From: Nitrospira sp. CG24E | GTDB taxonomy: Bacteria > Nitrospirota > Nitrospiria > Nitrospirales > Nitrospiraceae | Assembly (NCBI GenBank): GCA_002869895.2 | Contig: NEWP02000027.1 | Location: 76,184-114,489, forward strand | Direction of reading: 5' to 3' | Length of the DNA stretch: 38,306 nt | Shown: in pieces, positions 9,755 to 34,208 of the stretch | Layout of the letters: each line of letters opens with the position of its first letter | How positions within the stretch are numbered: the stretch's first letter is position 1 | Notes under the pieces: generated by a model | Database searches by the model: none | Seen by the model: only the letters and a program-made list of their open reading frames with translations | Told to the model about the DNA's origin: nothing | Program-made: the position numbers and the translations under genes

Positions 9755-9758
9755 GACG

Positions 9759-9819
9759 AGGTTAAGGTTGAGGCTAAGCAAGAAGGATTTCGACTCAACC
9801 TTGGCCTTAACCGCAACCT
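9759..9819. repeat. Inverted array of 6-bp units (AGGTTR) between gltB and gltD
   Basis: Positions 9759-9782 read as four hexamers (AGGTTA, AGGTTG, AGGCTA, AGCAAG). Positions 9794-9819 carry four similar hexamers on the opposite strand. The arms can pair around an 11-base spacer. The array starts five bases after the gltB stop and ends just before the gltD ribosome binding site, so it could modulate gltB/gltD expression as an intercistronic hairpin. Confidence 0.7.
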
Positions 9820-9833
9820 GAAGAGTTGAAGAG

Positions 9834-11267
9834 ATGGGTGACCCCAAAGGTTTCATGAAATATGCCCGCGAGGGTCCCAAGCGGAAGCCGGTCGAGCTTC
9901 GTGTGCTCGATTGGAAGGAGATGTATGAACCCATCTCCGAGGAAAAGCTCAAAACGCAAGGTGCTCGCTGCATGGACTGTGGCGTACCCTTTTGCCAGGG
10001 CAACACCGGCTGTCCGGTCGTCAACTTGATTCCTGATTGGAACGATCTGGCCTCACGAGGCCGTTGGAAAGATGCGCTCAAGGCGCTCCATACGACAAAC
10101 AATTTCCCGGAGTTTACCGGACGGCTCTGCCCGGCCCCCTGTGAAGGGGCCTGCGTGCTCGGTATCAACGAAGATCCAGTCTCTATCAGGATCATCGAGT
10201 GGAATATCATCGACCGCGGCTTTAACGAGGGGTTGGTCGAACCGGCGTTACCGATGGCGAAAACAGGCAAGACGGTGGCCATTGTCGGTTCAGGGCCGGC
10301 GGGCATGGCGGCGGCGCAACAATTGGCGCGAGCCGGTCACAGTGTCACGCTCTTTGAGAAGTCCGATCGCATCGGCGGCCTGCTGCGGTATGGCATTCCG
10401 GATTTCAAAATGGAGAAGTGGGTCATCGACCGTCGATTGGAACAGATGAAGGCCGAAGGGGTGGAGTTCAGGACCGGCGTTTCTATTGGGAGAGATCTCA
10501 CGGGTGAACAGTTGCGGCAGCAGTTCGATGCGGTCGGCCTGACCCTGGGCGCGGAGCAGGCGCGTGAACTGCCGATTCCAGGCCGAGAACTCAAGGGTAT
10601 CCACCTCGCGATGGACTATCTGACCCAGCAAAACAAACGGAACGCCGGCGACAGGGTTACGGACGAACCTATTACGGCAAAGGGCAAGCGCGTCGTCATC
10701 ATCGGCGGCGGCGATACAGGGTCGGACTGTCTTGGCACCGCCCATCGCCAGGGCTGCATCGAAGCGCATCAATTCGAACTCTTGCCGGAGCCGCCGCCGC
10801 AACGCGCCGGCTCGACGCCTTGGCCTCTCTGGCCCATGCAGCTCCGTACCTCGCACGCGCATGAAGAAGGTTGCGATCGGCAGTGGAGTATTTCAACCAC
10901 GAAGTTCACTGGCCATAATGGCCAGGTGACGAAGCTCCATGGCAATCAAGTGAAGTTCGAGAACGGCAAGTTCACGCCGATTCCCAACAGTGACTTCGAC
11001 ATGGACGCGGATCTGGTGCTGCTCGCGATGGGCTTCACCGGCCCGGTGAAGAATGGTCTACTCGACAGCCTCGGTGTGAAGTACGATCAGCGTGGTGCAG
11101 TGTCGGTGGATGACAACTTCATGACCAACCTCGACGGTGTCTTTGCCGGTGGCGACACCAAACGCGGCGCCTCCCTCATCGTCTGGGCCATTGCCGAAGG
11201 ACGCAAGATGGCGGCGGGGATCGATAAGTATTTGCAGGCTGGGAAGTCTGCAAAAACAGGCCGCTGA
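9834..11267 (+). CDS. gltD: Glutamate synthase small subunit
   Basis: 477 residues, full length for bacterial GltD. The N-terminal segment carries cysteine clusters for two 4Fe-4S centres (CMDCGVPFCQGNTGC and CPAPCEGAC). The FAD-binding motif is VAIVGSGPAGMAAAQQLARA, followed by GGLLRYGIPDFKM. The NADPH-binding motif is VVIIGGGDTGSDC, and the C-terminal FAD segment is GVFAGGDTKRGASLIVWAI. It passes electrons from NADPH to the large subunit for reductive transfer of glutamine amide nitrogen to 2-oxoglutarate. It sits 79 bases after gltB. The last codons and the TGA stop (11265-11267) lie inside the left terminal repeat of a palindromic element, so the extreme C-terminus (GR-stop) is element-derived. 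The subunit is intact although its partner is disrupted. Confidence 0.96.
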   Translation: MGDPKGFMKYAREGPKRKPVELRVLDWKEMYEPISEEKLKTQGARCMDCGVPFCQGNTGCPVVNLIPDWNDLASRGRWKDALKALHTTNNFPEFTGRLCPAPCEGACVLGINEDPVSIRIIEWNIIDRGFNEGLVEPALPMAKTGKTVAIVGSGPAGMAAAQQLARAGHSVTLFEKSDRIGGLLRYGIPDFKMEKWVIDRRLEQMKAEGVEFRTGVSIGRDLTGEQLRQQFDAVGLTLGAEQARELPIPGRELKGIHLAMDYLTQQNKRNAGDRVTDEPITAKGKRVVIIGGGDTGSDCLGTAHRQGCIEAHQFELLPEPPPQRAGSTPWPLWPMQLRTSHAHEEGCDRQWSISTTKFTGHNGQVTKLHGNQVKFENGKFTPIPNSDFDMDADLVLLAMGFTGPVKNGLLDSLGVKYDQRGAVSVDDNFMTNLDGVFAGGDTKRGASLIVWAIAEGRKMAAGIDKYLQAGKSAKTGR

Positions 11268-11379
11268 AAACGACCTCCAACTGCGTTCTCGCCTCGCTCA
11301 AACCCTCAACGTACCTAGAACCGTACGCCTTCGGGCTCTCGCTCGCTGCGGCCTTGTTGGAAGGCCGTTTTGAGCGGCC
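11259..11379. repeat. Palindromic intergenic element, copy 1 (121 bp)
   Basis: Imperfect terminal inverted repeats of about 23 bp: GGCCGCTGAAAACG at 11259-11272, matched by CGTTTTGAGCGGCC at 11366-11379 with one mismatch, and continuing inward. The interior contains GCGTTCTCGCCTCGC, CCTCAACGTA, a small central stem and TACGCCTTCGG, all shared with related elements at 17008 and 20639. It carries no open reading frame of its own and behaves like a short non-autonomous repeat. Confidence 0.75.
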
Positions 11380-11397
11380 TGAAGAGGATTTGGTTTG

Positions 11398-16999: not shown

Positions 17000-17007
17000 C
17001 GTGCTTT

Positions 17008-17201
17008 AGCAGGATGCTGAAAAAGCACGCCAGCGGCGTTCTCGCATCGTTCAGACCTTCAACGGGGACCCGGGCGCCTCACCGACTCGGCGGCGCGCAC
17101 AAACTTGGTGCTCCTTATTCGTCGCAGCGTGCGCCCCAGAGGTACGCCTTAGGCTTTCACTCACTGCGGCCTTGCTGGGCTGCCTTTTTGAGCATCCTGC
17201 T
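17008..17201. repeat. Palindromic intergenic element, copy 2 (194 bp)
   Basis: Terminal inverted repeats of about 27 bp begin AGCAGGATGCTGAAAAAG (17008-17025) and end CTTTTTGAGCATCCTGCT (17184-17201). The interior shares GCGTTCTCGC, TTCAACG and GTACGCCTTAGGC with copy 1 at 11259, in the same orientation. About 75 bases of extra sequence sit at its centre relative to copy 1. No reading frame of its own. Confidence 0.75.
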
Positions 17202-17230
17202 GGCAAAAGCCGTTCTGTCGTTCGCGAATC

Positions 17231-17339
17231 GTGAGCGAGACAGGCGAGGCGTGCACGACAGGCGCGACTCGCAAAGACAGACCTTCCGACCAGTCTCGTA
17301 TTTCTCGCCAGTCTCGCGAGTTTCGCGCGAATAACGAGA
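17231..17339. repeat. Inverted array of 9-bp units (AGGCGAGAC-like)
   Basis: 17231-17280 holds about five nonamers of the type AGGCGAGAC. 17290-17339 holds about five on the opposite strand (CAGTCTCGC-like). The arms can pair into a long imperfect hairpin in the convergent gap between the Lys-rich protein and the PilZ gene. One 18-19 base block of the right arm recurs nearly unchanged at 34181-34204. Confidence 0.7.
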
Positions 17340-17381
17340 TACGCTCGTATTTCGATCGGAAATGCTTTCTGCTAGAAAAAA

Positions 17382-20638: not shown

Positions 20639-20827
20639 CTAGGAGCCTGTCCGACATTGACCGTTCTACTGCGGCAAACGATGCGCAACCATCTGCGTCG
20701 TTCTCGGCCCCAAAAAATCCTCAACGTATTCTCTCGAATACGCCTCCGGTTTTTTCAGGCCTTGCGCCGCTCATCTGGCCGTACCTCCTTTGCCTCGTCA
20801 CGAAGGCCATGTCGGACAGGCTCCTAG
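20639..20827. repeat. Palindromic intergenic element, copy 3 (189 bp)
   Basis: Perfect 19-bp terminal inverted repeats: CTAGGAGCCTGTCCGACAT at 20639-20657 and its complement at 20809-20827. The core has CCTCAACGTA, a perfect 7-bp central stem (CGTATTC...GAATACG) and TACGCCTCCGG. The CCTCAACG...TACGCCT core is 27 bases long here and in copy 1. It sits in a 600-base gene-free stretch (20501-21100), the rest of which shows nothing recognisable. Confidence 0.8.
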
Positions 20828-21100
20828 CCCGGACGATTCATGAGCGTTTGCTGAGTGGTCCGGGCTTCTTGCCTGCGAAGTTTCTCTCGTTCGGCACCCG
20901 CGCCGGCATTCATGAATAATTCTGGCTGGTTTTCGGCGTTCCATCTTGTTCGTGGCGCTGTATGTATTTAACCCTCCATCGATGGGATTGGGTAGCGGCT
21001 ATTCCCGTCAGTCTGTCGAGAACCGTAAATAACTCGACAGGTTGGAACTCGTGTGTAAGCCTTTCTGCAGCAGGCATTTCTCTTGCTGAAAGGTCCCTGT

Positions 21101-22003: not shown

Positions 22004-22031
22004 CTTTCAGCCTTCAGCCTCGAACCTCCAG
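22004..22031. repeat. Short array of 7-bp units (CCTTCAG-like), single orientation
   Basis: Four adjacent heptamers (CTTTCAG, CCTTCAG, CCTCGAA, CCTCCAG) lie downstream of the lipoprotein stop. No inverted partner arm was found nearby. It resembles the other periodic arrays of this window in unit length and position. Confidence 0.45.
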
Positions 22032-22173
22032 CATTCTTTGCCCCGTGACGTCACTCCCAGCCTGTTTCAGGATCTCTTGCCTGCAGAGTTTCTCCGCACC
22101 CTGACAGGCTATATTGCAGCGCGCAGGCTTCTCCGGTAGAGTCCGCTGTCTGTATCTCGGAGCCTGTGTCCCC

Positions 22174-29838: not shown

Positions 29839-29868
29839 ATCTCGCCCATGTTGAGTGTCTAACTGTGC

Positions 29869-29896
29869 GTTTCACGTTTCACGCTTCACGCTTCAC
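29869..29896. repeat. Array of four 7-bp units (GYTTCAC) between modA and modB
   Basis: Two copies of GTTTCAC are followed by two copies of GCTTCAC, exactly adjacent. They occupy the modA-modB gap within the operon, just before the modB ATG, where a ribosome binding site would be expected. No inverted arm was found. Unlike the other arrays it is in one orientation only. Confidence 0.75.
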
Positions 29897-29905
29897 GGCA
29901 CTTCC

Positions 29906-32077: not shown

Positions 32078-32116
32078 TTGACAGGGAATCGCAGTGTATG
32101 TAACCATTGGTTACAT
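32078..32116 (+). promoter_or_regulatory. Promoter and 19-bp palindromic operator of the LexA-like gene
   Basis: TTGACA (32078-32083) is followed after 17 bases by TAACCA (32101-32106). The perfect palindrome ATGTAACCATTGGTTACAT (32098-32116) covers the -10 box and ends one base before the ATG. It is the probable autoregulatory site of the encoded repressor. The transcript would have a leader of about five bases. Confidence 0.7.
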
Positions 32117-32117
32117 T

Positions 32118-32663
32118 ATGAAGCCTGCCGATTTGAAACATCTTCGGGAACAGCTCGGCCTCACACAACAGCAATTGGCCGATGCATTGCGAACCACGCG
32201 TGTGTCGGTGGCGCGATATGAAGCGGGTATGCGGCGGATTCCTGGCATGGTGAAGGTCGCGATCGATCAGCTGGGGCGCTCGTCTGAAATTTCTATGGCA
32301 GGGATAGTGGCGGCTGGTTCGCCGATCGAACCGGTGCAGCAGGCTGAGCGCATCGATGTGCCTCCCAGCATGTTACGCGGTGGAGATACCTTTGCGCTTC
32401 GGGTCAAGGGGGAATCGATGAAAGATGACGGCATTCTGCCGGGCGATCTCGTCGTGGTGCGGAAGCAGGCGACGGCAAGAAATGGGCAAACGGTGGTGGC
32501 CTTGGTGAATCATGAAGCCACGATCAAGACCTATTTCAAAAAAGATTCGCACATCGAACTGCATCCGGCCAACGAAGCGATGCAGCCGATTATTGTGAAA
32601 CCGTCAGATACGTTTCAGATCGAAGGTCTTCTCATCGGTGTGATTCGTCATTGTACGGTGTAA
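32118..32663 (+). CDS. LexA-like repressor with XRE helix-turn-helix and S24 autoprotease domain
   Basis: 181 residues from ATG 32118, with no ribosome binding site and next to the operator. Residues 5-55 form an XRE helix-turn-helix (LKHLREQLGLTQQQLADALR, TTRVSVARYEAG). Residues 60-181 form a LexA/UmuD-type S24 peptidase domain. The self-cleavage site is Ala66-Gly67 in IVAAGSP, the nucleophile is Ser100 in VKGESMKDDG, and the general base is Lys137 in EATIKTYF. Such proteins cut themselves when RecA filaments signal DNA damage, or respond to other stress, and so release their genes. The XRE domain differs from the winged helix of canonical LexA, so it may be either the LexA substitute or a phage-type repressor. 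Confidence 0.88.
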   Translation: MKPADLKHLREQLGLTQQQLADALRTTRVSVARYEAGMRRIPGMVKVAIDQLGRSSEISMAGIVAAGSPIEPVQQAERIDVPPSMLRGGDTFALRVKGESMKDDGILPGDLVVVRKQATARNGQTVVALVNHEATIKTYFKKDSHIELHPANEAMQPIIVKPSDTFQIEGLLIGVIRHCTV

Positions 32664-32670
32664 CGAATGC

Positions 32671-32806
32671 GGTTCATTTGGTCTGTCTGGTTTATTTCGT
32701 TTGTTTTGTTCAACTGGTTTCTCTGGTTAGCTGGTTCGTTTGGTTTCTTTCGTTCTTCGAACCAAACAAACGAGACAAACCAAACAAACCAATCGAACAA
32801 GACAAG
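32671..32806. repeat. Long inverted array of 9-bp units (GGTTTGTTT)
   Basis: The left arm (32671-32759) is about ten tandem nonamers near GGTTYRTTT (for example GGTTTATTT, CGTTTGTTT, GGTTCGTTT), one of them 8 bases long. The right arm (32760-32806) is about five nonamers in the opposite orientation. The two arms meet almost directly, so the RNA would fold back into a long, imperfect hairpin. It starts eight bases after the LexA-like stop and ends just before the ribosome binding site region of the next small gene. Confidence 0.85.
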
Positions 32807-32850
32807 CTGGCGGCTTTTTTCAGCACTCTGCTAAAAGGAAGGAGGACAAG

Positions 32851-33099
32851 ATGCTCATAGCAAGACGATCCCTTAGGACAGACCGGCTCGCTGATTTGAA
32901 GCGAACGGTGGATGTATTGAATGGACAGTTACGCGAGGCGCAGGGGGAGTTGTATCGTGTCAAAGCGGAGCCGTTACTTGTGTGGTTATGGCGGAATCTC
33001 GTGAGCGTCAAAGGTAGACAGGCGTTCATGTCTGCTGTCTGCAATCGGCGCGTTCGCCCGAATACAAGGATGGTGCTCCATGCTGACCCAAGGGCGTAG
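32851..33099 (+). CDS. Small coiled-coil protein (82 aa), function unknown
   Basis: GGAAGGAGG lies six bases before ATG 32851. A longer upstream frame exists but reads through the nonamer array and is discarded. The N-terminal 45 residues (RTDRLADLKRTVDVLNGQLR) are charged and heptad-like, then WLWRNLVSVKGRQAFM, then a basic tail. It lies in the probable operon behind the LexA-like repressor and overlaps the next gene by 20 bases. No family is recognised. Confidence 0.55.
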   Translation: MLIARRSLRTDRLADLKRTVDVLNGQLREAQGELYRVKAEPLLVWLWRNLVSVKGRQAFMSAVCNRRVRPNTRMVLHADPRA

Positions 33100-33358: not shown

Positions 33359-33423
33359 GGAAACGATGGTACATGAGCGGGCGATATGATACAGGAATGA
33401 TTCGGAGAGTGTCTACTCCGTCT

Positions 33424-33489
33424 GGTCGATCTGGTTTATCTTGTTCGTCTGGTCCATCTGGTGTTTGGTTGAACGAAACCAATCAGACC
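33424..33489. repeat. Inverted array of 9-bp units (GGTCYATCT)
   Basis: Five nonamers (GGTCGATCT, GGTTTATCT, TGTTCGTCT, GGTCCATCT, GGTGTTTGG) fill 33424-33468. Two inverted nonamers (AACGAAACC, AATCAGACC) fill 33472-33489. The pair folds back on itself with almost no loop. It lies between the tRNA and the ferritin-like gene. Confidence 0.75.
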
Positions 33490-33548
33490 ATCATGTGGGT
33501 GTCCTGTTACATCTTGGTTTCGTCCCGTCCTTCCGATAAGCTGGGCAC

Positions 33549-34136: not shown

Positions 34137-34204
34137 AAAATCAGAACACCCAGAAATCAGAACCCAGAATAATCACTCGTCTCGCTTTTCCCGCCAGTCT
34201 CGCG
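34137..34204. repeat. Periodic array in the convergent gap (7-bp, then 9-bp units)
   Basis: 34137-34172 shows AAATCAG/AACCCAG-type heptamers. 34176-34204 shows nonamers ending in TCTCGC. The last block, CCGCCAGTCTCGCG, with its neighbours is nearly the same as in the 17290-17339 arm. The array fills the short gap between the ferritin-like stop and the sthA stop. Confidence 0.6.
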
Positions 34205-34208
34205 TGTG

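Follow-up and report, generated by a model that had tools for sequence, protein, structure and literature searches.

Directly behind a lexA-like gene of Nitrospira sp. CG24E, the intergenic DNA is built of short units that run first in one direction and then, as an inverted array, in the other. An earlier note on this DNA, made from the letters alone, had placed this element in a class of intergenic elements with one architecture and different unit sequences. This raises the question of whether such arrays are copies of a repeat, products of a process that generates arrays or hairpins kept by selection at gene ends. We addressed it in the window, that is, the whole analyzed stretch of 38,306 nucleotides, in a larger part of the genome and in related and distant genomes.

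Array Elements in the Window and in the Genome

The lexA-like gene (32,094–32,663, forward strand) has HTH_3 (PF01381) and Peptidase_S24 (PF00717) domains according to Pfam, and the element at 32,671–32,806 starts directly 3′ of its stop codon. Read directly on the forward strand, it comprises a G/T-rich 5′ arm of about nine GGTYNRTYT-type nonamers (32,671–32,753), the center CGTTCTTCGAA between the arms (32,751–32,761), which is identical in the sister species G023, and an A/C-rich 3′ arm in which five AACCARAYN-type nonamers form the inverted array (32,760–32,804). This agrees closely with the earlier reading of about ten nonamers one way and about five the other. The period-9 array exceeded shuffles of its intergenic region at P = 0.003, which is the floor of the 300 shuffles used per region, and Tandem Repeats Finder (TRF) called the right arm with period 9 and a score of 52. 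The predicted RNA fold of the whole element (32,655–32,840) had −52.7 kcal/mol (z = −2.85 vs. shuffles), and a scan for intrinsic terminators, i.e., a G+C-rich stem followed by a T run, revealed none at this element.

Among the other named sites in the window, four are clear: TTGGTCA-type 7-bp inverted arrays (2,758–2,844, P = 0.003), AGGTTR/YAACCT 6-bp inverted arrays (9,759–9,819, P = 0.007), a one-arm CGTTTCA 7-bp array on the forward strand (29,869–29,898, TRF score 47, P = 0.003) and, at 33,424, a second nonamer array (33,421–33,490, forward strand, TRF call at 33,421–33,462, P = 0.003). Weaker are a one-arm TTCAGCC 7-bp array (22,004–22,032, forward strand, TRF call at 22,006–22,020, P = 0.017) and, at 34,137, a short directly read CCCAGAA-type array followed by GTCTCGC nonamers (34,139–34,208, forward strand, P = 0.033). 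The site at 17,231 does hold an array, but it belongs to a separate dispersed repeat, a GTCTCGC-type nonamer palindrome (17,217–17,345) with copies of 80–87% identity in relatives; the GTCTCGC units that end the 34,137 element are related to it. The 6- and 7-bp elements differ in their unit words and their spacers look unrelated, so the unit sequences are indeed unrelated among them, but not among the nonamers, where the elements at 32,671 and 33,424 represent one family.

To place these elements in the genome, we surveyed 798 kb of its 3.45 Mb, with genes called by a simple codon-usage script, and scored 554 intergenic regions (140 kb) against dinucleotide shuffles at a threshold of at least 16. 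The survey yielded 37 arrays of period 9, 11 of period 7, two of period 6 and one of period 12; no array of period 8, 10 or 11 reached this score in the 554 regions. Shuffles gave no array at any period, and apparent period-5 matches were runs of N. The class is thus far above chance (37, 11 and two arrays at periods 9, 7 and 6 vs. zero in shuffled intergenic DNA). The idea of a single architecture, with different words, at gene ends is supported.

The Nonamer Family and the lexA-Like Junction

Sequence similarity assigns the elements at 32,671–32,806 and 33,424 to a single dispersed family of nonamer palindromes, so these two were spread by copying. The element behind the lexA-like gene had 63 BLAST matches in its own genome and was matched in 30 of the 32 genomes of the genus searched, as well as in nine genera of the family. 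A single profile, seeded from one copy in the relative G026, recovered 75 of the 82 nonamer elements and none of the 62 heptamer elements. The earlier argument against homologous spread therefore fails for this element. The center GTTCAACCAA was found again in about one third of the nonamer elements, and nonamer arrays occupy the place of the second copy (33,421–33,490) in G023 and G026. The G/T-rich arm comes first in 65 of the 66 nonamer elements with callable orientation, a count that is not independent evidence because these are copies of one family. Plasmid records gave no match.

The forward-strand tail of the lexA element, GCTGGCGGCTTTTTTCAGCACTCTGCT (32,806–32,832), resembles a MITE-like terminal inverted repeat (GCAGGATGCTGAAAAAG... 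reversed) when compared with positions 17,008–17,202 and with a nonamer element of G026 that is flanked by both ends; a left end at the lexA element is doubtful (CGAATGC). The MITE-like dispersed repeat itself (17,005–17,204, ends AGCAGGATGCTGAAAAAG and CTTTTTGAGCATCCTGCT) is matched 66 times in its own genome, with many matches covering just the two ends. Further dispersed repeats, with many copies and 80–90% identity in relatives, lie at 11,257–11,381 and at about 20,640–20,830. REP and BIME elements are single palindromes of 20–40 bp that bear a GTAG or CGTC tag and are accompanied by a RAYT gene; the lexA element is, in comparison, a 130-bp array of 9-bp units, and the genome carries three Y1_Tnp genes.

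A small conserved ORF on the forward strand (32,851–33,099) follows the element, and in most relatives it lies directly behind the lexA-like gene; the longer frame that contains it (32,740–33,099) had no Pfam match. In 22 of the 28 orthologous junctions, this ORF starts 18–30 bp past the lexA-like stop codon and no array is present. The junction measures 187 bp in this genome (G000) and 137 bp in the sister species G023, both with the nonamer element; the difference, about 52 bp, lies in the left arm, where whole units are missing in G023. An AGTTCTG heptamer array stands at the same junction in G026 and G019, and other short inserts are found in G005 and G028. The gene tree, read irrespective of branch support, places G000 with G023 and G026 with G019 as sister clades, and the history of the junction involved either two insertions or one replacement. 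In the reading we favor, a copy of the nonamer family entered the site behind the stop codon before G000 and G023 diverged, and units were later gained or lost; the insertion and the change in copy number are visible in the comparison, and slippage would be the probable route of the latter. In the majority of relatives, the two genes set apart by the element lie almost end to end, an argument against the idea that a terminator was required there ancestrally.

Replacement of Words at Orthologous Gene Ends

The earlier note had proposed comparing arrays at orthologous loci, and this comparison revealed different words in the relatives, a stronger pattern than could be seen in one sequence. At the 2,738–2,843 junction, the word is TTGGTCA in G000, GGCGTKA in G014 and TCAGCWK/GCTGATA in G019. 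Read by eye, an unrelated long palindrome (GGATGATTCC ... GGAATCGTCC) appears to occupy this junction in the array-free relatives G023, G005 and G026. At 9,755–9,833, the hexamers of G000 and G023 are one base apart and G019 carries AGTGCTG/CAGCACT; G005, G014 and G026 have other heptamers, and since their words partly differ between left and right, replacement seems to have affected just one of the two arms. The 29,839–29,905 junction holds CGTTTCA in G000, CCCTCAC in G019 and AATGACG in G026, with the genes abutting in G005 and G014, and at the 34,137 junction the words are different in every relative examined.

Across 403 orthologous pairs, arrays were present in both species in 36, in one species in 75 and in neither in 292, and the word differed in 19 of the 36 pairs with arrays in both. 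When a real intergenic region was required in both species and any two nonamers were treated as one family, 18 pairs showed recurrence with different words (pooled odds ratio 2.8, p = 0.003), a p value that is optimistic because the species pairs overlap and share loci. Two single species pairs gave odds ratios of 7.0 (G019–G026, p = 0.016) and 8.8 (G005–G026, p = 0.034), and three others were not significant. Exact empty sites were not obtained for most loci, where the alignments were too diverged.

Heptamer words are shared between loci of the genus at a rate of 0.14, vs. 0.02 for shuffled words. Genome-specific vocabularies were not seen, with nearly equal sharing within and between genomes (0.143 and 0.136). 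The exact CGTTTCA triple occurs in at least 117 stretches from many phyla, 80 of which, from 44 genomes and about 13 phylum-level groups, were analyzed. With CGTTTCA-like words set aside, sharing between Nitrospira and other phyla (0.0205) was that given by composition (0.0201). A universal vocabulary was rejected on this basis: CGTTTCA is widespread, and other words are not common to phyla beyond composition. The architecture is therefore general, whereas words, shared within the genus but not between phyla, are tied to lineages.

Location, Pairing and Polarity of the Arms

Arrays were found in only 6 of 138 divergent intergenic regions (4.3%), in comparison to 143 of 874 others (16–18%; p = 5 × 10⁻⁵), and between co-directional genes they lie nearer the upstream stop codon (80:41, median 27 nt). 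A same-word opposite arm within 120 bp, at a score of at least 11, accompanies 31 of the 72 heptamer arrays, with none in the reversed-word control; in the other 41, no second arm was detected at score 11.

Initial signals of covariation between the arms (z = 4.7 and 6.6, p = 6 × 10⁻⁸) were withdrawn because elements and centers had been chosen by pairing, and they vanished once the arms were set by composition or word. With arms defined by base composition, nonamer arms paired no better within elements than between them (16.9 vs. 17.6, p = 0.95); with arms defined by word, the unit order of the second heptamer arm was not a mirror of the first (19.9 in real elements vs. 20.4 with shuffled unit order). 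In the absence of arm-specific covariation in these unbiased tests, selection for exact RNA pairing is unsupported.

The arms do have a direction. In two-armed heptamer elements from about 13 phyla, the G-rich arm is 5′ and the C-rich arm 3′ in 68 of 76 (68:8), in a sample whose other-phyla loci were gathered with one heptamer word and include several from one Chloroflexaceae genome. The bias is present in nearly every phylum group and is not created by the choice of strand, since the orientation reads the same on either strand. Ordinary hairpins, in contrast, were G-first at 140:100 in intergenic regions of the genus and at 189:182 in the other-phyla loci. The bias was replicated in freshly sampled stretches of five genomes that belong to other phyla and were selected for their CGTTTCA arrays, but with all words counted, where G-first ratios were 26:5 for heptamers, 31:12 for all periods and 181:159 for ordinary hairpins. 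Pooled over distinct heptamer words, the ratio was 52:11. Within this genus alone, the difference between heptamers (20:5) and hairpins (140:100) is marginal (p = 0.051). The G-first rule does not extend to period-8 arrays (3:7), most of which are purine-first (8:2). A rule placing stop codons in the 5′ arm (60:15) was set aside because it is tied to G-richness and because arrays with one arm have no preferred strand with respect to the gene (15:15). Dense palindromic arrays of periods 7 and 8, with many words, were also observed in the Chloroflexota stretches L161, L196 and G107.

Relation to Known Repeats

The earlier note knew of no named family with this rule, but close relatives have been described. 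In Xanthomonas, GGGAATC forms dispersed tandem heptamers, mostly intergenic, that lie close behind the upstream ORF, 28 nt from its 3′ end vs. 160 nt from the next ORF, are rare between divergent genes (7–8%), include 70–75 inverted pairs per genome called convergent (one strand, then the other) and were read as G-quadruplex repeats (Rehm et al., 2015, PMC4692102). As in Nitrospira, these are heptamers at gene 3′ ends, few in divergent regions and with inverted partners, and their convergent pairs would fit the G-first polarity. Xanthomonas uses one word per genome, whereas Nitrospira has many, in units of 6, 7 or 9 bp, and its species can differ in word at an orthologous site.

In the STRR and other heptamer arrays of cyanobacteria such as Nostoc, and in the P6b stem of the Nostoc trnL intron, two sides pair (PMC4476775, PMC4692102); in the P6b stem, two unrelated 7-nt motifs have repeatedly replaced each other with the fold kept (PMC4476775). 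There, the exchange concerns one site inside a structured intron, whereas in Nitrospira it takes place at many gene ends. Intergenic 7-bp tandem arrays of the STRR or Xanthomonas kind occur in the window at 2,758, 22,004 and 29,869, and the element at 32,671 differs by its 9-bp unit; TTGGTCA, the word at 2,758, presumably matches an STRR word. The TAACTGA repeats of Beggiatoaceae are intergenic heptamer direct repeats whose word is common to distant phyla, but unlike the Nitrospira arrays they lie upstream of start codons, in 169 direct sets and one indirect (PMC4679880). Surveys of prokaryote tandem repeats found period 7 to be the commonest intergenic length, proposed polymerase slippage and suggested that 7 nt may reflect polymerase contact (Mrazek, 2007, as quoted in PMC4679880; for period and slippage also SPADE, PMC6344855); inverted arms, gene-end location, word turnover and polarity are not described in the parts of these accounts considered here. 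Inverted heptamer arrays are thus already known from Xanthomonas and Nostoc; what looks new is the turnover of words and the bias in polarity.

Origin of the Arrays

The arrays themselves, the same word in both arms, the site at gene ends, the changes in copy number, the turnover of words and the polarity bias are direct observations. They lead us to propose, with a probability of about 0.45, that mutation is the main source of the class. Slipped-strand synthesis would expand a short unit, and a strand switch would then add an inverted array of this word close by; if the switch occurred during synthesis of the G-rich strand, it would give the bias toward a G-rich 5′ and a C-rich 3′ arm. Words would spread between loci within a lineage, and arrays would persist since the sequence just past stop codons presumably tolerates them. 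The unmirrored unit order of the second arm counts against the strand switch, which would have to be ancient or since obscured by slippage, and the 8-mers, which are not G-first, count against the proposal as a whole. Arrays could also recur at the same junctions because they have a function there, and not because they are tolerated.

The main rival remains selection for hairpins at mRNA 3′ ends, acting on stability or termination, in which any pairing word would suffice, so that words are swapped and the build stays. The earlier note had offered such selection as one of its explanations, and the location fits it well: arrays are rare between divergent genes and close to stop codons. The predicted folds of 32,655–32,840 and of 9,755–9,833 (z = −4.1) are stable, the array-free orthologs of the 2,758 junction appear by eye to carry a different palindrome, and the return of arrays with different words at orthologous junctions would be expected. 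Arm-specific pairing, however, is absent once arms are defined without it, more than half of the heptamer arrays lack a detected second arm, most lexA orthologs have no array, the lexA element has no terminator-like site, and the folds of the 33,424 and 29,869 elements are not clearly beyond shuffles (z = −0.7 and −1.2). We consider this selection possible, though on balance improbable.

For the nonamers, it can be argued that the element is the cargo or interior of a transposase-mobilized MITE with GCAGGATGCTGAAAAAG... ends, so that the arrays ride along. The tail of the lexA element and the G026 copy with both ends point this way, as does an inward-facing MITE-like end within 60 bp of 12 of the 82 nonamer elements vs. 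3 of the 72 elements with 6- or 7-bp units. Full end-to-end copies make up just 7 of 207 profile hits, though, the end sequence is common in array-free intergenic regions too (67 of 606), and the heptamers are left unexplained, which makes the MITE origin unlikely. Very improbable is the reverse transcription of a short template by a telomerase- or retroelement-like enzyme, a form of the templated synthesis raised in the earlier note. By analogy, the fixed unit length and G-rich strands recall telomeres, but a PF00078 search of the 98.2%-complete genome detected no reverse transcriptase; a divergent polymerase could escape this search.

Returning to the mutational origin, it may be, although we find this rather doubtful, that many phyla share a directional process in which the second arm is formed by strand switching after a G-rich (purine-rich) strand and which, at gene ends, keeps replacing the words. 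Palindromes of short units would then run from G-rich to C-rich on whichever strand they are read. Intergenic heptamer arrays are common in bacteria, and the literature on them, as far as considered here, gives no clear function or origin. The directional bias of the arms is a fingerprint of mechanism, and words that are swapped while the build is kept, together with a G-first direction seen across phyla and absent in ordinary hairpins, make the question of their origin testable.
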